Below, one piece after another: positions 3 to 26,468 of a DNA stretch of 64,000 nucleotides. The DNA lies in the NCBI GenBank assembly GCA_002030015.1, contig LQBH01000070.1:1-64000 (forward strand), in the 5' to 3' direction. The position numbers and the translations under genes were made by a program. The notes beneath the pieces were generated by a model that saw nothing but the letters and a program-made list of their open reading frames with translations, searched no databases and was not told the origin of the DNA. The stretch comes from a delta proteobacterium MLS_D. GTDB lineage: Bacteria; Desulfobacterota; Syntrophia; Syntrophales; UBA2210. Numbering within the stretch: position 1 is the stretch's first letter; each line of letters starts with the position of its first letter.

Positions 3-488
3 CGGAAGGCCGTTACGCGGCCCGGCGACAGGACAGCGTGCACGGCTGTCGCGAACGCCGTGGCGATGTCGGGATGTGTCTTTTCCAATACCGATGATTC
101 TGTGCTTCACAGGCTGGCGCAGGCCGTATACGACATGCGGGGTGTTCACCCCGGCGTGACGATGGCCCTGTCGCTGCTCCCGGTTTTCGAGGAATACCGG
201 GGCGGGGAAAGGTATGACATCGCTTCTCTGCTTCAGCCGCTGGCGGGGGACGAGACGTTCGTGCGGACACCGCCGGAAAAGCGGGCCGATGAGGCCCTGT
301 CGGCGCTTGGGTCACTCGTCGCGGGTGTCCGGGAAGTCCCGGGGGTGAAAATGCCCCGAAACCTGGAAGAAGCGGGCGTGCCCCGGTACGTGATGGACGA
401 TATTTTCGAGGTGCTCGATCGGGACGCCGACGGTGCGTACCTGCGTTCCCTTGCCGGGCGGATTTGGAACGGGTCGCCGCCGGCCTGA
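3..488 (+). CDS. Iron-type alcohol dehydrogenase family protein, C-terminal part, degenerate metal site (5' end outside window)
   Basis: The frame is open from the left edge, so the N-terminal half lies upstream of the window. The visible part aligns by eye with the C-terminal helical domain of the intact iron-type alcohol dehydrogenase that follows: FSNTDDSVLHRL matches FSNSMVGMVHNL, and a conserved LLP follows at the same spacing. Metal binding looks impaired. The family GH is AQ here, and the PHG that supplies the last metal histidine reads HPG, so the histidine is moved by one residue. The gene ends 16 nt before the next dehydrogenase and probably shares its transcript. It may be a non-catalytic or retuned paralogue, and no substrate can be assigned. 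An in-frame ATG at position 60 is very unlikely to be the real start. Confidence 0.7.
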   Translation, partial: RKAVTRPGDRTACTAVANAVAMSGCVFSNTDDSVLHRLAQAVYDMRGVHPGVTMALSLLPVFEEYRGGERYDIASLLQPLAGDETFVRTPPEKRADEALSALGSLVAGVREVPGVKMPRNLEEAGVPRYVMDDIFEVLDRDADGAYLRSLAGRIWNGSPPA

Positions 489-504: not shown

Positions 505-1752
505 ATGATACTGCCGGGTTATTATGAATTCTGCTGCCGCGTGACAATCGCCGCCGGCCACGACGCGCTGGAGCGAATACCGGAACTGCTCGCCGTGCGG
601 GGAGCGGAAAAGCCGATGATTGTCACGGACAAGGGGGTCGCCGGCGCGGGACTCGTCGACATCGTATCCGACGCGCTGCGGGGTTCGGTTGATGTCAGTT
701 TCGTCGCCGACAACGTTCCCCCCGACTCGGATTTGAAAGTAGTCAACGAACTGGCGGCGGTGTACCGGGAGAAAGGCTGCGATGCCATCATTGCCGTGGG
801 GGGCGGGTCCGTCATGGACACGGCGAAGGGAATCAATATCGTCGTTTCCGAGAACGCGTCCGACCTGATGGCATTCAGCGGAATCGGCGCCCTGAAGCGG
901 CCTCTGAAACCGCTGGTCGCGGTGCCGACGACGGCGGGCACGGGGTCGGAGGTGACGCAGGTCGCCGTGGTGAAGGACCACGAGAAACACCTGAAAATGG
1001 CGTTCGGCAGCTATTTTCTGCTCCCCGACGCAGCCGTTCTCGATCCGCGAATGACGCTCACCATGCCGCCCGCGGTGACTGCCATGACGGGCATGGACGC
1101 CATGAGCCACGCCGTGGAAGCCTATTACGGACTTCAGAAAAATCCCCTGAGCGACGCCCACGCCCTGGAGGCGCTCGGCCTGCTCTACAGGTACTTGCCG
1201 GTTGTCGCCGAACATCCCGACGACCGGGATGCGCGCCTGGCAATGGCCGTCGGGGCGTGCCTTGCCGGCATCGCCTTTTCCAATTCGATGGTGGGTATGG
1301 TCCACAACCTGGGACACGCGACGGGTTCGGTCTGCGGCGTGCCCCACGGTCTGTGCATGGCCGTGCTGCTTCCCTACGGTCTTGAATACAACATGCACAA
1401 GCGGCGGGACATCATCGGAGAAATCCTGCTGCCCCTGGCGGGCGAGGAAGCGTACCGCGACACGCCCGTTGAAGAGCGGGCGGAGAGGGTGGTGTCTTTG
1501 GTGAGAGACATGAATTCACGCCTCCACGAGTTGACCGGGGGACGGCACGCCCGGTGCCTGCGCGAGGTCGCCGATCGGGACGGAGCGCCGATGGTCCCGC
1601 GGGAAATCCTGCCGGAAATAGCGAAAGCCGCGCTGCTCGACGGGGCTTCCGTGTATAACCCGGAGGAATCGGATTTCGAGGACAACATGATGGTCCTGGA
1701 GACGGCCTGGGAAGGAACCCCGCTCGATCGCGGCAAGGTCAAAAAGGGATGA
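505..1752 (+). CDS. Iron-containing alcohol dehydrogenase
   Basis: A full-length type III (Fe-ADH) dehydrogenase of 415 residues, the usual family size. The N-terminal dinucleotide-binding part has GGGSVMDTAKG near residue 100 and PTTAGTGSE. The C-terminal metal-binding half carries GMDAMSHAVEAY (Asp and His ligands), GMVHNLGHATG and VPHGLCM (His ligands), all intact. The ATG follows a purine-rich GAGAGGG stretch. It lies between a degenerate paralogue and an aldehyde:ferredoxin oxidoreductase plus ferredoxin. This suggests interconversion of an alcohol and aldehyde by this enzyme and of the aldehyde and acid by the AOR. The family is certain; the substrate is unknown. Confidence 0.92.
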   Translation: MILPGYYEFCCRVTIAAGHDALERIPELLAVRGAEKPMIVTDKGVAGAGLVDIVSDALRGSVDVSFVADNVPPDSDLKVVNELAAVYREKGCDAIIAVGGGSVMDTAKGINIVVSENASDLMAFSGIGALKRPLKPLVAVPTTAGTGSEVTQVAVVKDHEKHLKMAFGSYFLLPDAAVLDPRMTLTMPPAVTAMTGMDAMSHAVEAYYGLQKNPLSDAHALEALGLLYRYLPVVAEHPDDRDARLAMAVGACLAGIAFSNSMVGMVHNLGHATGSVCGVPHGLCMAVLLPYGLEYNMHKRRDIIGEILLPLAGEEAYRDTPVEERAERVVSLVRDMNSRLHELTGGRHARCLREVADRDGAPMVPREILPEIAKAALLDGASVYNPEESDFEDNMMVLETAWEGTPLDRGKVKKG

Positions 1753-5336: not shown

Positions 5337-5750
5337 TTATTGCAGGTGTACCAGGGCGTCCCTGATCCTGTCGTGAATCAGCCGCGAGGCGAGGTTGTTC
5401 CCCGTGAGCCCCACCCTGACCGCCACCGTGGTGATCTCGGGCTCGAGATACTCAACGGTGATTTTCACATCTTCGCCTTCCATGTGGGCGCGCCAGGTCC
5501 CGGATGAAATCTTTTTCTCCGTTTCCATGACGACGGCGTTCATGTTATGCAGGGCCTTTTCCGCCGCCCGCCAGGTTTTCTCGAAGGACGCCGCGTAGTC
5601 GGTTTTCAGGGTTCCATCGGTGTAAAAGAATTTTCCCGATTTGACGCCTACGGTGCGATCCCCCATCATGACGGCGGTATTACAGCCGGCAGTGAACAGG
5701 AAAAAGAACGAACAGGCGATGGAAAGGAGATACCGGGTCGAGCGTTTCAT
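5337..5750 (-). CDS. DUF3568-type lipoprotein
   Basis: A 137-residue exported lipoprotein. A positively charged start (MKRSTRY) and a hydrophobic stretch end in the lipobox FTAGC at about residue 22. The rest is a small alpha/beta domain (TVGVKSGKFF, then SFEKTWRAAEKAL) of the kind found in DUF3568 proteins. The ATG at 5750 is chosen over an in-frame TTG at 5756 because AAGGGG lies about 8 nt upstream. It ends 9 nt before the SfsA-like start, but no functional link is evident. Function unknown. Confidence 0.8.
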   Translation of the reverse strand: MKRSTRYLLSIACSFFFLFTAGCNTAVMMGDRTVGVKSGKFFYTDGTLKTDYAASFEKTWRAAEKALHNMNAVVMETEKKISSGTWRAHMEGEDVKITVEYLEPEITTVAVRVGLTGNNLASRLIHDRIRDALVHLQ

Positions 5751-5840
5751 AATCAATCCCCTTGTGTTTGTCCTGAAGGTTGGCGGTTACGTCGATTACC
5801 ACTTGTCGTGATTTTAGGTTACACGACGTGCAATGTCAAT

Positions 5841-6680
5841 TCAGAAGCTGTAGTAAAGCGCCCTCACCACTGACCAGAGAAGAATGATAACGGTTAATGC
5901 CGCGCAGGCCATTGAAAGAAAGCGGTGGCGGTGGTTTTCGATCTTTTTGTCATTGTAGCCGAGAAGAAAGGCCAGTCCCACACCGGCCAGCGCGCCCCCG
6001 CCGTGAGCCCAGTTGTTGATGCCGGGAACGAGAAAACCGAAGATGCCGATAAACACCAGCCATCCGAGAACCTGTTTGTAGAGCGCTGTGCCGAAGGAGC
6101 CGCCCCGGCTCTTGCCGTAATAGAGGACCGCTCCGATCAGGCCGCAGATGCTCGCCGAGGCCCCGATGGTAAAGGGAACTCCGGCCGCGTAGGACAGAGC
6201 GAACCCGGCGATTCCCGTGCCGGTGTATATGACGAAAAACCGGTGAAGACCGAATTCATGAATGACCAGGGGAGAAATCTGCCGGAAGGCGATCATGTTG
6301 AACAGGATGTGCAGGACGCCGCCGTGCAGGTACGAGGCGGAGACAAGTGTCCACCAGGCGCCGAAACGGTCAATGGGAATGACGCCCGTCGCTCCCATGA
6401 GCAGGAGACTGTTGCTGGACGGAGACAGCATGGAAAGTGGATTGCCGGACATCCCCACGGCCGAGGGGTCGAGTATGAGCGTCAGGAGATAAAAAGCCGC
6501 GTTCACGCCGATGATGACCGTGATGAAATCGTAGGGGTTTTTGAGCAAGATGCCGAGAAAGTCGCGTTTCAGAATGCCCGCGGGATTTTTTGTGCCGCAG
6601 TAGGGACAGACTTTTTCCGAGGCGCTGATCAGTTTTCTGCAGTTGGGACAGAGCAGGGAGTTGCGTTCACGTGGAGACAT
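5841..6680 (-). CDS. Rhomboid family intramembrane serine protease with N-terminal zinc ribbon
   Basis: 279 residues. An N-terminal zinc ribbon (CPNC at 11-14, CPYC at 26-29) precedes a rhomboid domain with about six to seven membrane segments. HILFNM (124-129) matches the family HxxxN motif. The catalytic serine is S175 in GASAS, and the catalytic histidine is H226 in NWAHGGG. The serine motif is usually GxSG, so the Ala after the serine is a small departure. It is expected to cleave membrane proteins within the bilayer. It lies 22 nt downstream of the TraB-family gene and is probably in the same operon. Confidence 0.9.
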   Translation of the reverse strand: MSPRERNSLLCPNCRKLISASEKVCPYCGTKNPAGILKRDFLGILLKNPYDFITVIIGVNAAFYLLTLILDPSAVGMSGNPLSMLSPSSNSLLLMGATGVIPIDRFGAWWTLVSASYLHGGVLHILFNMIAFRQISPLVIHEFGLHRFFVIYTGTGIAGFALSYAAGVPFTIGASASICGLIGAVLYYGKSRGGSFGTALYKQVLGWLVFIGIFGFLVPGINNWAHGGGALAGVGLAFLLGYNDKKIENHRHRFLSMACAALTVIILLWSVVRALYYSF

Positions 6681-6702: not shown

Positions 6703-7866
6703 TTACAACCAGAGATAATTCATCATCAGGGGAATGGCGATAAACGTGCCCAGGGAGCTGCCCACGTTGACGAAGACCACCACCAGAAGAACGCGGGTTA
6801 TCTTGTTGTGCCAGAAGCCTTTGAGGGTCGATATGTCGTCCCGTAGAGAAATGACATCCTTGACCTGCGGTTTCCGCAGTGATGCCTCGATGATTCCCGC
6901 AACCCATCCTGCCGCCATCATCGGGTTGAGCGATGTAAGAGGCGCCGCCGCGATGGAAGCGACTATAGTGGCGGGGTGTGCGAGAACGGCGAGCGCGCCC
7001 AGACCGGCCAGCGTTCCGTTGATGAGAAACCACCATTTCAGCATGTCCAGGCTTCTTTCCGCCCCTCCCTGAATGAAACCCGTCACGATAATCGCGATGA
7101 CCAGCGCTGACAACCCCCAGGCGATCGCGCGTCCCCAGGGGCTTTTCGGGGGTATTTCATTCAGCGGCGCGATGTCCACGTCTTTGTCAAGGTTTTTCAG
7201 TATACCCGGTACGTGACCCGCGCCGACAACAGCGACGACTTTTTGTCCCGGCGCCGCGGCTATGGAACGGGCGAGATACTGGTCGCGTTCATCAATGAGG
7301 GTGATTTTCGCGCCGGGCAGTTTTTCACCGAAGGAAGCCAGGGCGATTTCGAGCATATCCTTGTTTTTCATTTCTTCGATATCCTGTTCCGAGATGTCCC
7401 GGTCAAACAGGAGAGAAAAGAGGCCCTCGAAAAAAAGCCGAATCTTGGAAATAAAACCGATTGTTCTCCAGGTTCTGGTCAGGGTCGTTCTGATATCGCG
7501 GTCGGCGAGGACCAGGTCGGAACCCGTCTGCTCGGCTTTCAACACGGCCCGGATCATTTCATCGCCCGGCGTGATGCCGAATTTATCGGCCAGCTTTTTC
7601 TGCACGGAGGCCATCAACAATTGGGAGAGGAGCAGAGATGTCTGTTTCCGGCGTATTATTTTAAAAATATCCGTCGCCTCCCAGGCTTCCTTCTGCTTGA
7701 TCGCCTCGTAACGCGACCGGCACAGCTCGACGCAGATCGTGTCCGGCTGCTCCTCCTCGATGACGCGTTCGACAAGGTCGGCGCTGTGACGGGAAACGTG
7801 CGCCGTTCCGACCAGCACGATTGTTTTACCCTCGTGGACAATGCGAGTGACGTTTTCTTGTTCCAT
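6703..7866 (-). CDS. TraB/PrgY family membrane protein
   Basis: 387 residues from the chosen ATG at 7866, which has AAGGATG just upstream; an alternative start at 7911 would add 15 residues. The N-terminal soluble domain has the family motif VGTAHVS near residue 20, followed by CVELCRSRYEA, VLADRDIRTTL and VVAVVGAGHVPGI. The C-terminal third holds about four hydrophobic segments. TraB/PrgY proteins are widespread putative metalloproteins linked to pheromone shutdown in enterococci; the role in this lineage is unknown. It appears co-transcribed with the rhomboid protease. Confidence 0.87.
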   Translation of the reverse strand: MEQENVTRIVHEGKTIVLVGTAHVSRHSADLVERVIEEEQPDTICVELCRSRYEAIKQKEAWEATDIFKIIRRKQTSLLLSQLLMASVQKKLADKFGITPGDEMIRAVLKAEQTGSDLVLADRDIRTTLTRTWRTIGFISKIRLFFEGLFSLLFDRDISEQDIEEMKNKDMLEIALASFGEKLPGAKITLIDERDQYLARSIAAAPGQKVVAVVGAGHVPGILKNLDKDVDIAPLNEIPPKSPWGRAIAWGLSALVIAIIVTGFIQGGAERSLDMLKWWFLINGTLAGLGALAVLAHPATIVASIAAAPLTSLNPMMAAGWVAGIIEASLRKPQVKDVISLRDDISTLKGFWHNKITRVLLVVVFVNVGSSLGTFIAIPLMMNYLWL

Positions 7867-8147
7867 GGCATCCTTCACGCGATAATTTTGCGAAGCTAAC
7901 AATATTTTCACCCCTTGTAAAGAGAAATGACGCCGCCATAATACGTGATTGGTTGAGCCTGTTCATGGTACAGACAGTTCAATGCCCCGTCAATTCGGCA
8001 AGATATGTGCTACTCCTCAGGGGGGCGGGGAAAGGTGTTTCACACTTCGTTTTTCCTCCTCCTTGAGGGGGACGGTCAGGGTGGGGATGAAAGAGCAGGT
8101 GTGAATGGTGGCGCGAAACCTGCGGAGAAGCATTCCGCTCGGTGCAG

Positions 8148-8195
8148 CCACCCCCTCCCCGTAATCCCCTCCCTCCAGGGGAGGGGAAAAATGAT
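8148..8195 (-). repeat. Inverted copy of a dispersed CCCTCCCCTGGAGGGAGGGG repeat
   Basis: The minus strand of this stretch reads TTTCCCCTCCCCTGGAGGGA followed by a G-rich tail. This matches the repeats at 40800-40866 and 41172-41241, which lie on the plus strand. The core is self-complementary (CCCCTCC/GGAGGGG), so it can form a hairpin. Probably a small dispersed non-coding repeat. Confidence 0.7.
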
Positions 8196-8288
8196 TTGGG
8201 AACACCCTCCCGCAAGGGTCGGGGGAAAGATAAAGACATGAGCTTCCCGTCCGGGGGAAAGGGAAAGATATTGTCGGCTCCTTATCCG

Positions 8289-8340
8289 GTCATCCTGAGC
8301 CCTTCGACGGAGCTCAGGACAGGCTTGTCGAAGGATAGAC
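8289..8340. repeat. Palindromic dispersed repeat
   Basis: Contains CCTGAGCCCTTCGACGGAGC, then CTCAGGACAGGCTTGTCGAAGGAT. The inner arms CCTGAG/CTCAGG and outer arms ATCCT/AGGAT and CCTTCGAC/GTCGAAGG form nested inverted repeats. It resembles the short CTTGTCGAAGG-type intergenic palindromes common in bacterial genomes. It sits directly before the 45-bp tandem repeat, which shares the TTCGACAGGCTCAG core. Confidence 0.65.
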
Positions 8341-8360
8341 CGGGGGGTGGTGCTGCAGGT

Positions 8361-8470
8361 CGGTCGTCCGTACTTCGACAGGCTCAGTACGAACGGTATC
8401 TTAATCGGTCGTCCGTACTTCGACAGGCTCAGTACGAACGGTATCTTAATCGGTCGTCCGTACTTCGACA
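8361..8470. repeat. 45-bp tandem repeat, about 2.4 copies
   Basis: Units 8361-8405 and 8406-8450 are identical by eye, and a third is cut off after 20 nt (8451-8470). Each unit starts CGGTCGTCCGTACTTCGACA, contains GGCTCAGTACGAACGG, and ends TATCTTAAT. Within a unit, CGTACT and AGTACG are inverted arms around the TTCGACAGGCTC core. There is no non-repetitive spacer, so this is not a CRISPR array. Confidence 0.85.
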
Positions 8471-8540
8471 CGGGCTCTCTTGAGCCCGTCGACGGCCGGG
8501 CGTCTGCACTATCTCTGTTATATCCTTCGACTTTGCATAT

Positions 8541-8583
8541 TGATGAACCGAAAGCCCGCTGCATGTAAAACCCATCGCGGATT
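8541..8583 (+). promoter_or_regulatory. 43-bp conserved element, copy 1 (upstream of rlmD-like gene)
   Basis: Starts TGATGAACCGAAAGCCCG, contains GCATGTAAAACC, and ends GCGGATT. It matches the element at 25861-25903 at 37 of 43 positions without gaps. It ends 80 nt before the chosen rlmD ATG; the other copy ends 82 nt before the start of an unrelated gene. The constant position relative to the start suggests a regulatory or 5'-UTR role. A mobile palindromic repeat is the alternative. No known riboswitch family was recognised. Confidence 0.45.
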
Positions 8584-8663
8584 GTGGGACGCCGCCTTTT
8601 CGCTTGTCGCCCGCGCCCATGACAGGTATACAGAAGACAGGTCGTTTTCATGGAGGATGGTTT

Positions 8664-9917
8664 ATGCAGCAGCACCGGTTCGTGCCGGGAGATCGCGTCA
8701 CGGTGGAAATATCCGACGTGGCTTTCGGAGGGAAAGGCGTCGGCAGGAGTGAAGGCATGGTCGTTTTCGTACCCTGGACGGTGGACGGAGACGTGGTCGA
8801 GGTGGAGATCGACCGGGTGCGCCGAAACTATGCCGAGGCGGAACTTATTAATATTATTACGCCTTCTCCACACAGAATCGAGCCCGCCTGCCCGTATTAC
8901 GGGGTCTGCGGCGGGTGTCACTACCGGCACATTACCGGTGAACATGAACGTGAGATCAAGGAAAAACAGGTGCGGGACGCGTTCGAACGAATTGGAAAGA
9001 TTTCCTCTCCCCCGGTACATACCATTATTCCGTCTCCCCGAATCAGCGGGTACAGGCAAAAAGCGGATTTTCACGTTCGCGACGGCGGGCCGAACGGCTG
9101 TGCCATCGGGTTCATGCGGACGGACGGCACGACCCTGGTCGAGATCGACCGGTGCGACCTGCTCGATGAGTCGATAAATATCGAATTAGCCGCCGTCAGG
9201 GCGGACACGGCATGCCGAGACGACATGCCGGAACGGATGGTCGTCTGGGCGAACCTTCCCTGTGGAACGACGGACGACATCACCAGACGGGTGGGCAACC
9301 TGGACATGAAGGTACCTGCCCGTGGATTTTTTCAGGCCAACACCTTCCTGGTGGAGACCCTGGCGAAACGCGTTGCCGGTGCGTATCCCGAGTCGTCCGA
9401 GGGGGCGTTGCTCGATTGCTGCTGTGGATCGGGACTGTTTTCGCTTTTCGCGGCCCGGGAAGGCCGGCCGGTTATCGGCATTGATATCGATGGAGAGGCT
9501 TTGCGGTGCGCCCGCGAGAACCTCGCGAGCCTGGGCGTCGAGAATGTCACGCTGCACCGCGGAACACTTGAGGCGGTCCTGGGAAGACTCGATCCCGGCC
9601 CTGTCGCCGCTGCCATCGTTGACCCGCCGCGGGCGGGCATCACGAAACGCGCCGCGGACCGGCTGGCGTCTCTCGAACCGGCAACCGTTGTGTACGTGTC
9701 CTGTAATCCATCGACGCAGGCCCGCGATGTACGCCGTCTCATCGATCTCGGTTACGAGCTGGCCGAGGTGCAGCCGCTGGACATGTTCCCCCGGACGAAG
9801 CACGTGGAGACGGTAGCTGTTTTGACAAGGGCAGGCGTGCGATCGGAGGATGGCGGCACGACGGGAACCCGCGGTGGAACGGGCGATGAGGATCAATCCG
9901 GGAGAATTGTTTCATGA
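8664..9917 (+). CDS. rlmD: 23S rRNA (uracil-C5)-methyltransferase, RlmD/RumA family
   Basis: 417 residues from the ATG preceded by GGAGGATGG; an earlier in-frame start at 8604 has no such site. Residues 5 to about 65 form a TRAM RNA-binding domain (FVPGDRVTVEI, VDGDVVEVEIDRV). CPYYGVCGGC provides cluster cysteines C76, C82 and C85 for a [4Fe-4S] centre. A SAM-dependent Rossmann domain follows (ALLDCCCGSGLFSL), then the motif VDPPRAG and the catalytic cysteine in VYVSCNPST. The fold and motifs are those of m5U methyltransferases. RlmD is the likely function, but RlmC/TrmA-type specificity is not excluded. The Nudix gene overlaps its stop by 4 nt. Confidence 0.9.
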   Translation: MQQHRFVPGDRVTVEISDVAFGGKGVGRSEGMVVFVPWTVDGDVVEVEIDRVRRNYAEAELINIITPSPHRIEPACPYYGVCGGCHYRHITGEHEREIKEKQVRDAFERIGKISSPPVHTIIPSPRISGYRQKADFHVRDGGPNGCAIGFMRTDGTTLVEIDRCDLLDESINIELAAVRADTACRDDMPERMVVWANLPCGTTDDITRRVGNLDMKVPARGFFQANTFLVETLAKRVAGAYPESSEGALLDCCCGSGLFSLFAAREGRPVIGIDIDGEALRCARENLASLGVENVTLHRGTLEAVLGRLDPGPVAAAIVDPPRAGITKRAADRLASLEPATVVYVSCNPSTQARDVRRLIDLGYELAEVQPLDMFPRTKHVETVAVLTRAGVRSEDGGTTGTRGGTGDEDQSGRIVS

Positions 9918-24533: not shown

Positions 24534-25586
24534 TTACAGGTTCCAGAACGGGCGTAACCGCTGAAGTATGTTTCGCACCAGCATATCGGTCTTTTCGTCG
24601 GCCCCCTCCGGCGTTTCATCCGGTTTCCGCCCGCCGGTTTCGGTTTCTCCGCTCATCTCGAGAAGCATGGCCCCGGCCGAGCGGGCCATCATGGAGATAT
24701 TGTAGCCGCCCTCGAGCGTGAAAACCAGGCGGCCCCCGCAGCAGCGGTCGGCGATATCCATGAACACGCGGGTGAGCTTGACGAATCCCTCTTCCGTGAC
24801 GTTCATACCGCCCAGTGCGTCGCCCCGGCAAATATCGAAACCCGCCGATACCAGCACCAGTTCAGGCCGGTAGGCCGTCGCCAGGGGATCCAGTATTTTT
24901 TTAAATATTTTCAAGTACTCGGCATCACCCTGTCCCCGCTGAAGCGGCACGTTAACGGTGTATCCCTCCCCCGGTCCCACACCGAGCTCGCCGGCGCTTC
25001 CCGTGCCGGGATAAAAAGGATACTGGTGCGTTGAAAAATACAGCACGCCGGGATCGCCGTAGAAAGAGCGCTGTGTTCCGTTGCCGTGATGCAGGTCCCA
25101 GTCCGCGATCAGGATGCGTTCGAGACCGTATCGTTCCCGGGCGTGAGCCGCGGCCACGGCCACGTTGTTAAAAATGCAGAATCCTCCCGACGCGGCGGTT
25201 TCAGCGTGGTGCCCCGGCGGCCTGACGAAAGCGAAGGCGTTTCGCACGGTGCCGTCCATGACGTCGTCCACGGCGTTCATAAGGCCGCCGGCGGCCAGGA
25301 GCGCCGCGTCGTAGGAACCGGGTGACGCGATGGTGTCGATATCAAGCGCCGAATACATCATTCCCGCGGTGGCGGCGACGCGATCAATATAAGAATGGCG
25401 GTGAATGCGCGCGAGTTCTTCAACCAGGGCCTTTCTCGGTTCGATGCGAAAGAATTTATTTTTCATATCAGCGCCGTCAAGCATATCGTAAACAGCGGCA
25501 AGCCGCTCCGGCGATTCGGGATGTCCGCAGCCCGGATCATGATCCATGTACCGCCTGTCGGCGACGACACCCGTGATGTAACTCAT
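24534..25586 (-). CDS. Histone deacetylase family protein (AcuC/class II HDAC-like)
   Basis: 350 residues. HDAC-fold markers: HDPGCGHPESPERL near residue 15, RPPGHHAE (catalytic His pair), GFCIFNNVAVAA, the zinc ligands in ADWDLHHGNGTQ, and the later SAGFD and LEGGYN. Bacterial members deacetylate proteins (AcuC), polyamines or other amides; the substrate here is not determined. It is upstream of gatC on the same strand with a 39-nt gap, so it may be the first gene of that transcript. Confidence 0.92.
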   Translation of the reverse strand: MSYITGVVADRRYMDHDPGCGHPESPERLAAVYDMLDGADMKNKFFRIEPRKALVEELARIHRHSYIDRVAATAGMMYSALDIDTIASPGSYDAALLAAGGLMNAVDDVMDGTVRNAFAFVRPPGHHAETAASGGFCIFNNVAVAAAHARERYGLERILIADWDLHHGNGTQRSFYGDPGVLYFSTHQYPFYPGTGSAGELGVGPGEGYTVNVPLQRGQGDAEYLKIFKKILDPLATAYRPELVLVSAGFDICRGDALGGMNVTEEGFVKLTRVFMDIADRCCGGRLVFTLEGGYNISMMARSAGAMLLEMSGETETGGRKPDETPEGADEKTDMLVRNILQRLRPFWNL

Positions 25587-25985
25587 GATAACCTCGAAAC
25601 ATAGGCGGATTCAAAGAAGATTCCCTCCTATCACAGACGCCGGGCAAAAGCAATCAGACCGCGATTCCGACGCAGCATCAGCGATGCATGGCGCCTGTTT
25701 ATGACATACATGGTTCACCACACGAACCGCTGTCCCTCGAAAGAGGAACGTCCCCCCGGGAAAAGGGGCCACGGAAACGTACCGCCTATTGTCCCGCTCC
25801 TGCCTGTCCGGTCTAGCCTTCGCCGGTATCCGTTTCCGTTGCCTTTACGGTTTTTCGTGCTGATGACCCGAAAACCCGTTCCATGTAAAACCAATAGCGG
25901 ATTTCGGGCCCGAGCTTCCTGTTGCGTTCCGGGTCTCCCGCGGGTATCGTTGGCGCATGAACGACAGGATTGGAAACATGCCATT
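25587..25985. other. Intergenic region with the second copy of the 43-bp element
   Basis: About 400 nt between divergent genes. The only feature I can support is the 43-bp element at 25861-25903. The open frame running through here into the downstream gene from 25701 is low-complexity and lacks a ribosome-binding site, so the gene is taken to start at 25986. Confidence 0.5.
25861..25903 (+). promoter_or_regulatory. 43-bp conserved element, copy 2 (upstream of small export protein)
   Basis: Begins TGATGACCCGAAAACCCG, contains CCATGTAAAACC and ends GCGGATT. It matches the copy at 8541-8583 at 37 of 43 positions. Here CCCGAAA (in the element) can pair with TTTCGGG just past its end, giving a stem-loop around the ATGTAAAACC core; the equivalent pairing in copy 1 is weak. 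It ends 82 nt before the gene start. Confidence 0.45.
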
Positions 25986-26468
25986 ATGAGCGGCCTTTTT
26001 GACGGCCCTTTCTGGCAGTACGCGATGCTTTTTGTTCTCGCGGCGACACCCTGGATCGAGCTGCTTTTCGTGGTTCCACTGGGTGTAGCCATGGGACTCG
26101 GGCCGGTCTGCGTGGCGCTCGATGTTTTCGCGGGCAACACGCTTCCGGTGTTTCTTATCGTCTTTGGTTACGACAGGTGGCGCGCCTCACGCCCCGGGAC
26201 GGCGGCGACGGAAGGGCCACGCCGCGAAGGCCGCCGACGGACACGGGCGCTTCGCATCTGGAACAACTATGGCCTGCCCGGTCTCGCCATGGCAGGCCCC
26301 CTGCTGACGGGCATTCACCTTGCCACCGCCATCGCGCTGCTGTTCAATCCGGATCGTAAAAAACTCCTTTTCTGGATGACCCTGAGTCTCCTGCTCTGGA
26401 CGATCGCTCTCGCCGCCGCGAGTTACGGCGGGCTGGAAGCGGTCCGCCACTGGTTGGCCCGTGCATGA
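25986..26468 (+). CDS. Small multidrug export family membrane protein (PF06695-like)
   Basis: 160 residues with about four hydrophobic segments. ATPWIELLFVVPLGVAMGLG resembles the characteristic glutamate-containing first helices of the small multidrug export family, and GLPGLAMAGPLLTGIHLATA is a second conserved helix with internal Gly/Pro. A basic loop (RREGRRRTR) lies between. The name is historical, and transport has not been shown for most members. The start is ATG at 25986, with only a weak GGATTGGAA site upstream. Confidence 0.72.
   Translation: MSGLFDGPFWQYAMLFVLAATPWIELLFVVPLGVAMGLGPVCVALDVFAGNTLPVFLIVFGYDRWRASRPGTAATEGPRREGRRRTRALRIWNNYGLPGLAMAGPLLTGIHLATAIALLFNPDRKKLLFWMTLSLLLWTIALAAASYGGLEAVRHWLARA

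Follow-up and report, generated by a model that had tools for sequence, protein, structure and literature searches.

The window, the whole 64,000-nucleotide stretch of DNA analysed here, carries a 43-bp sequence twice, once upstream of an rlmD-like gene and once upstream of a gene of the small multi-drug export protein family, each time with a divergent neighbour on the other side (Table 1). An earlier note on this DNA had described the pair as lying on one strand at a fixed distance from two unrelated genes, and had offered a 5'-UTR RNA element, a promoter element or a common mobile leader as its nature. Direct comparison bears out the resemblance: the two stretches are identical at 37 of 43 positions, are oriented alike with respect to the gene that follows, and are separated from the start codons by 80 nt (ATG 8664) and 82 nt (ATG 25986). 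With up to 3 mismatches allowed, two patterns built from the 43-bp copies each found two places in the window, versus 0 in 100 shuffles.

The 43-bp unit is real, but its full extent is longer: each stretch forms the right-hand terminus of a MITE, a non-autonomous transposon, of 238-654 bp, as judged from sequence features, because TIRs and a target duplication are found and no IS1380 transposase is. The left end of copy 2 was found only by an HMM of its own subfamily (E 7.5e-9, 25719-25674, minus strand), with the tip extrapolated, and no flanking direct repeat was recognised at this copy. The middle of copy 1 (8300-8500 and 8160-8200) consists of stacked dispersed repeats, of the CTTCGACAGGCTCAG type at 8373 and 8418 and of the CCCTCCCTCCAGGGGAGGGG type, and these internal repeat types recur within other MITE copies. 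The true start of the traB-like gene is probably downstream of the one given by the longest ORF reading, near 7878 or 7866, because its predicted promoter (-10 at 7893-7898) falls inside that reading.

Table 1. Features of the two element-bearing loci of the window; promoters are predictions, and offsets (+) are counted outward from the element end.
Feature	Positions	Strand	Details
TraB/PrgY/GumN-family (traB-like) gene	6703..7911	-	divergent neighbour of copy 1; Pfam
Predicted promoter, traB-like gene	7893..7921	-	TTTACA 7921-7916, 17 bp, TAGCTT 7898-7893; -35 at +14 from modelled left end
Left flanking direct repeat	7929..7937		GACGCCGCC; 6-9 bp according to the placement of the tip
MITE copy 1, complete	7935..8588	+	654 bp (end models), between traB-like and rlmD-like genes; left-end HMM 67 bits, right-end HMM 62 bits
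Left end of copy 1	7935..8015	-	TIR tip decayed
Right end of copy 1	8541..8583	+	first 43-bp stretch; TIR ATCGCGGATTGTGGG
Right flanking direct repeat	8588..8596		GACGCCGCC
Predicted promoter, rlmD-like gene	8604..8632	+	TTGTCG 8604, 17 bp, TATACA 8627; -35 at +16 from element end
rlmD-like gene	8664..9917	+	TRAM and tRNA_U5-meth_tr; Pfam
Histone-deacetylase-domain gene	24534..25586	-	divergent neighbour of copy 2; Pfam
MITE copy 2, diverged subfamily	25671..25908	+	about 238 bp; right-end HMM 49 bits
Right end of copy 2	25861..25903	+	second 43-bp stretch
Predicted promoter, small-export-protein gene	25922..25950	+	TTGCGT 25922, 17 bp, TATCGT 25945; -35 at +14
Small multi-drug export protein gene	25986..26468	+	PF06695; Pfam

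A family of MITEs in one genus

With the core pattern of the window copies (up to 3 mismatches), only the window pair was retrieved from the host genome, and the reversed control gave 0 matches. Among 149 genomes (the host and its relatives) four were matched: the host (2), the sister species G003 (3 places) and G004 (2), and G061 (1, coding, by chance). The yield of this narrow pattern was seven true relatives, window pair included, plus the coding chance match L003; the wider family became visible only with a broader model (R1). A sequence-only family model trained on 7 close copies matched 39 times in the host genome, 35 times in G003 and 38 times in G004, as compared with 1 match in G001, 2 in G002, and 0 to 2 per genome in the 14 genomes of other genera that were examined. 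Likewise, the TIR alone, CCCRAAATCCGCGATTG, was matched at 49 places in the host genome versus 1 in the reversed control, and at 35 and 48 places in two sister species. The counts indicate dozens of MITE copies in three species of one genus.

In aligned copies the layout consists of a left end CCCRAAATCCGCGATTGGTTTAGCCTGTTCATGG..., a variable middle with other repeats, and a right end ...CTCTACAGAAAATCAATCGCGGATTTTGGG, with direct repeats of about 6 bp outside. Strong matches are paired with a second match on the opposite strand, invariably pointing outward, and end models applied to 80 regions delimited 42 outward-facing left/right pairs spaced 266-654 bp. A direct repeat (score of at least 6) abuts both ends in 14 of the 42 pairs, versus 0.8% of 1722 cross-pairings; examples are AGGACTT, ATATCCC, GTTATCC, CAGAAG and TGTTGT. 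The family thus combines the features by which prokaryotic MITEs are recognised, namely outward TIRs, target-site duplication, short length without a transposase gene (searched for the IS1380 family), and empty orthologous sites.

Two such empty sites were found. In G001 the traB-rlmD intergenic region has no element and measures about 190 bp, versus about 750 bp in the window, with the bases of the traB-side promoter conserved; G003 carries the same insertion as copy 1 with the left half lost. At the second site (L051), G004 has ...GGATGACGACGGTATTGACATT... where the host genome has the TIR followed by GGATAACGCCGGTATTGACATT, and in G002 TTGACA is present and the element absent. At empty sites in sister species, the predicted promoter is therefore present without the element.

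At numerous loci (L043, L110, L067, L077, L122, L125, L126, L128, L134, L137 and the DYLE/JAKAGF loci) the contig ends a few hundred bases from the element or inside it, so that the assemblies break there and autonomous copies are probably missing from them. At L127 (G004:C113), several left and right ends overlap in the region 5366-6520, which looks like insertions nested in one another or placed in tandem.

Element ends lie at a fixed offset from predicted promoters

Flanks were scored with a generic promoter matrix of the E. coli type, and with it outward sigma70-like promoters scoring at least 10 were predicted, before deduplication, at 24 of 60 right ends (3.5 in shuffles) and at 17 of 52 left ends (4.05 in shuffles). 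Removal of look-alikes with shared 12-mers left 86 of 111 flanks. Among these, TTGAC starts at +14 in 10 flanks and at +15 in 9 (19 of 86 together), versus 15 occurrences scattered over all other offsets within 110 nt. Full promoters scoring at least 8 are similarly concentrated, with 9 flanks at +14, 13 at +15 and at most 2 at any other offset listed, and the reverse strand has 0 flanks with such a promoter at +14/+15. The best -10 is spaced 17 bp from the -35 in 10 of 34 cases. Counted per element, a promoter is predicted at +13..16 at one end in 22 of 39 elements, at both ends in 2 and at neither in 15, whereas a control window gave one end in 3 of 39, both in 0 and neither in 36. Copy 1 of the window is one of the two elements flanked by promoters at both ends. 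For the 15 elements that lack a promoter at the expected offset, decay, non-sigma70 promoters or untargeted insertions are proposed. Taken together, predicted sigma70-type -35 boxes start 14-15 bp from the MITE ends, and either end can face the promoter.

The gene downstream of the element end can be of any kind, tRNA-Val included. At this locus (L049) the tRNA-Val gene (860-934, minus strand) lies about 55 bp outside the element end, and the predicted promoter has TTGCAT at +15.

The geometry recasts the options of the earlier note. The spacing that it noticed is constant, but the fixed point is the -35 box and not the start codon: a rough ORF call on 21 elements puts the nearest ORF anywhere from about 0 to 338 nt away, and the similar distances to the two start codons are a coincidence of two copies. 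Of the three proposed identities, the common mobile leader came nearest; the element is mobile, but it is not a leader since it is located upstream of the promoter. Reading the repeat as a promoter element finds no support because the predicted -35 and -10 fall outside it, in unique sequence. As a refutation of its reading, the note had named many copies at random orientation and distance; copies are indeed many and either end can face the gene, but their distance from the promoter is non-random.

A clade of IS1380-family elements shares the ends and the offset

In L226, from the Desulfobacterium sp. SW.3.97 MAG (another genus than the host), the same TIRs enclose 1601 bp (1098-2698) with one 429-aa transposase of the IS1380 family (NCBIfam NF033539, 304 bits against a cut-off of 180; Pfam DDE_Tnp_1_4), and TTGACA, 17 bp and TATAGT follow outside its left end with the -35 at +14. 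The transposases of L226, L299, L250 and L247 score 263-351 bits against the same cut-off of 180, and other IS families are matched only below cut-off. These autonomous relatives are about 1.6 kb long, with short TIRs and direct repeats. An ISNCY/ISDol1 source, considered at first, was abandoned once the IS1380 transposase had been found between the same TIRs.

Homologues of the transposase occur in 14 of 395 genomes of the host phylum at E 1e-40; at E 1e-60, the phylum to which a TIR-bearing Nitrospirae MAG belongs has them in 13 of 295 genomes, and one record of a plasmid collection was matched at E 1e-30. No match was obtained in the host genome G000 (E 1e-40) or in G003 and G004 (E 1e-15), all MAGs that are 80-96% complete. 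Because of this, we only infer that the MITEs are moved in trans, the candidate being a transposase of the promoter-associated IS1380 clade.

G560 (Nitrospirota) holds five near-identical IS copies on one contig, with the direct repeats TAGGGA, AGAAG, CGCTT, TCAAAA and a weak TAAC; they appear to be recent, since they are near-identical and have direct repeats. Four of the five have a -35-like box at +14/15, with offsets and spacings counted by eye: TTGAAA-17-TCTAAT, TTGACG (no well-spaced -10), TTGACG-17-TTATCT and TTGACA-17-TATAAC. The exceptions are L315, without a promoter, and L312, without a well-spaced -10. TTG at +13..15 of one end is also found in L250, L247, L254, L257, L252, L255, L303 and L304; L301 and L308 came from a search for exactly this pattern, which leaves their well-spaced -10 as the only feature that counts. 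L249, L258 and L259 have TIR-like ends but lack TTG at +13..15, and L306 has TTGACT at +2. Delimited IS1380 elements from other branches in the same phylum (L256, L261, L267, L279, L285 and L289) have no promoter at +13..15; TTG does stand at +15 in L256, but no TTGAC-like box is present. These promoter counts cover loci with delimited ends; the ends of L244-L246, L248, L251, L253, L302, L305, L307, L309-L311 and others could not be delimited.

When 45 transposases were placed in a tree, a branch supported at 100/99 set apart a group that contains all 8 rows labelled as promoter-associated. Labels were given only to rows with delimited ends; the group also includes unlabelled rows, and its members had been collected through their similarity to a single query. 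The promoter habit is tied to a clade whose TIRs begin with CCCAA, and the IS1380 elements without it have TIRs of the CCTGAATCCGTGA type and others. One IS1380 clade, as far as the predicted promoters indicate, shares the promoter geometry, and the other IS1380 branches examined do not. Target-site duplications measure 5-6 bp here and 4-6 bp at other IS1380 loci; for IS1247 the consulted excerpt of PMC3281130 gives direct repeats of 5 bp.

The same TIR extends beyond the genus. A scan of 84,980 species for ATCAATCGCGGATTNTGGG returned 90 stretches against our own chance estimate of about 7, with carriers in Desulfofervidaceae, a Desulfonema-labelled MAG, the Nitrospirae MAG, Troglogloeales and others; viral contigs gave 2 TIR matches. 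These are separate element families sharing one TIR, because the bases just inside the TIR differ between lineages. After subtraction of 17 G003/G004 loci, 41 of 101 flanks outside the genus score at least 7 at +13..16 (control mean 3.1), in a set diluted by 3 apparently same-genus rows (L238), the viral-contig row L242 and several coding chance matches such as L158, L213, L220 and L224; of the 86 genus flanks, the 85 of at least 100 nt were used in this analysis. Direct repeats are weaker there, with 4 of 33 pairs versus 19 of 1056 cross-pairs.

Discussion

We are confident that the 43-bp repeat is one end of a MITE whose insertions keep a constant distance to the promoter downstream, apparently moved by a transposase of an IS1380 clade that would be guided by polymerase. 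Setting the -35 box at position -35 places the element end near -48/-49 and the 6-bp duplication near -48 to -43. In sigma70 promoters the polymerase footprint ends just upstream of the -35. The transposase, as we suppose with less certainty than its part in moving the MITEs, would locate its target through RNA polymerase holoenzyme bound at the promoter: it would dock on the holoenzyme and cut at about -49/-43, at the upstream edge of the footprint, which would leave the -35 and -10 intact and thereby offer a low-harm landing site.

A transposase that merely reads TTGAC-like DNA 7-8 bp from its cut might produce much of this pattern, provided that promoters contain the motif and that genic insertions are purged. 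TTGAC is the strongest flank signal, and TTGAC-like boxes stand on both sides of a few targets (L041 and L059). What makes recognition of DNA alone rather unlikely in our judgement is the -10, which accompanies the -35 at the right spacing (best 17, in 10 of 34) and gives 28 -10-like matches at +36..39 over the 45 TTG flanks outside the genus. Weak -35 boxes are found with a good -10 at the same offset, as in L056 (TGCATA/TATAAT) and in the window (TTGCGT/TATCGT), and the 47 genus flanks without TTG still show 7 -10-like matches at +37/+38, versus a mean of about 0.5 per offset. We favour guidance by polymerase on account of this correct placement of the -10 boxes and of weak -35 boxes too.

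Random insertion with later selection, whether for copies that spare the promoter or for well-phased ones in which the TIR serves as an activator site upstream, would be in keeping with the intergenic position of the insertions (rough ORF call) and with a TIR located near -50 to -66. Survival alone, however, predicts a broad spread beyond +14, and the observed peak is 1-2 bases wide in the genus and about 4 outside it. Moreover, the near-identical autonomous copies of G560 already show the offset, either element end can face the promoter, and other IS1380 elements of the same phylum lack the offset, all of which leaves this account very improbable.

A riboswitch-like 5'-UTR RNA common to the two genes hardly deserves belief: a hairpin CCCGAAAA..CCGC/GCGGATTTTGGG can form in the window's subfamily, with folding z of -2.31 for copy 2 and down to -2.70 in sister copies, but the window has 0 Rfam matches, the 5' arm is lost in the main family (CTCGATAACGTGC instead of CCCGAAAACCCGC), copy 1 shows no more folding than shuffled sequence (z +0.64), the predicted promoters separate the elements from the genes, and outward TIR pairs come with direct repeats.

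Insertion just upstream of promoters has a precedent. According to the consulted sections of Guerillot et al. 2014 (PMC3942029), TnGBS ICEs and related ISs insert 15-17 bp upstream of the sigma-A -35 (13-17 bp as counted), the same habit was shown for ISLre2 (p-MULT 3, as is TnGBS) and some ISKra4-group (p-MULT 4) elements, and an interaction with the RNA polymerase initiation complex was proposed. The elements described here likewise keep a constant spacing to a sigma70/sigma-A -35 downstream, but those of the paper have Mutator-like transposases and ours are of the IS1380 family; p-MULT 3 elements turn IR-right towards the promoter, whereas here either end does so, as in the ISKra4 group (same sections of PMC3942029). 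IS1380 is nowhere mentioned in those sections. Across open-licence PMC literature, searched at the level of titles and abstract openings, no paper was found that describes IS1380-family elements as targeting promoters. The MITE end itself is of an ordinary kind; its fixed placement upstream of promoters is an uncommon property, apparently unreported for IS1380.

We lean, with reservation, towards a broader proposal: that an IS1380 clade unrelated to Mutator-like transposases evolved, independently of them, the habit of inserting near -49 of sigma70 promoters through polymerase docking, and that its MITEs thereby spread upstream of many protein-coding and tRNA genes in Desulfobacterota, Nitrospirota and other phyla. 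If so, a second, unrelated transposase family would have converged on insertion just upstream of bacterial promoters, and promoter-guided transposition would be a recurring strategy rather than something special to TnGBS and related elements. The yeast elements Ty1 and Ty3, with their insertion at Pol III genes, are a comparable case. Such compact transposases (about 430 aa) would also be suited to testing which polymerase surface guides insertion, and could provide a tool to mark active promoters in genomes. In uncultured bacteria without transcript data, MITE ends may flag likely promoters.

Other known elements resemble the present ones in part. In the excerpted text of PMC9208149, IS1380 copies are overrepresented between co-oriented genes, and no distance rule for IS1380 was found in it. 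IS1202-family ISs at dif also keep a set spacing (5 bp) to a site where a protein binds, and contact with bound XerC was suggested by the authors, but their target is dif and their transposase belongs to a different family (PMC10132070, in excerpt). Correia, MITEAba12 and other prokaryotic MITEs are similarly short, non-coding and intergenic, with TIRs and target-site duplications; they are noted for carrying promoters, whereas here the host promoter lies outside the element at a fixed offset (PMC10969869, in excerpt).
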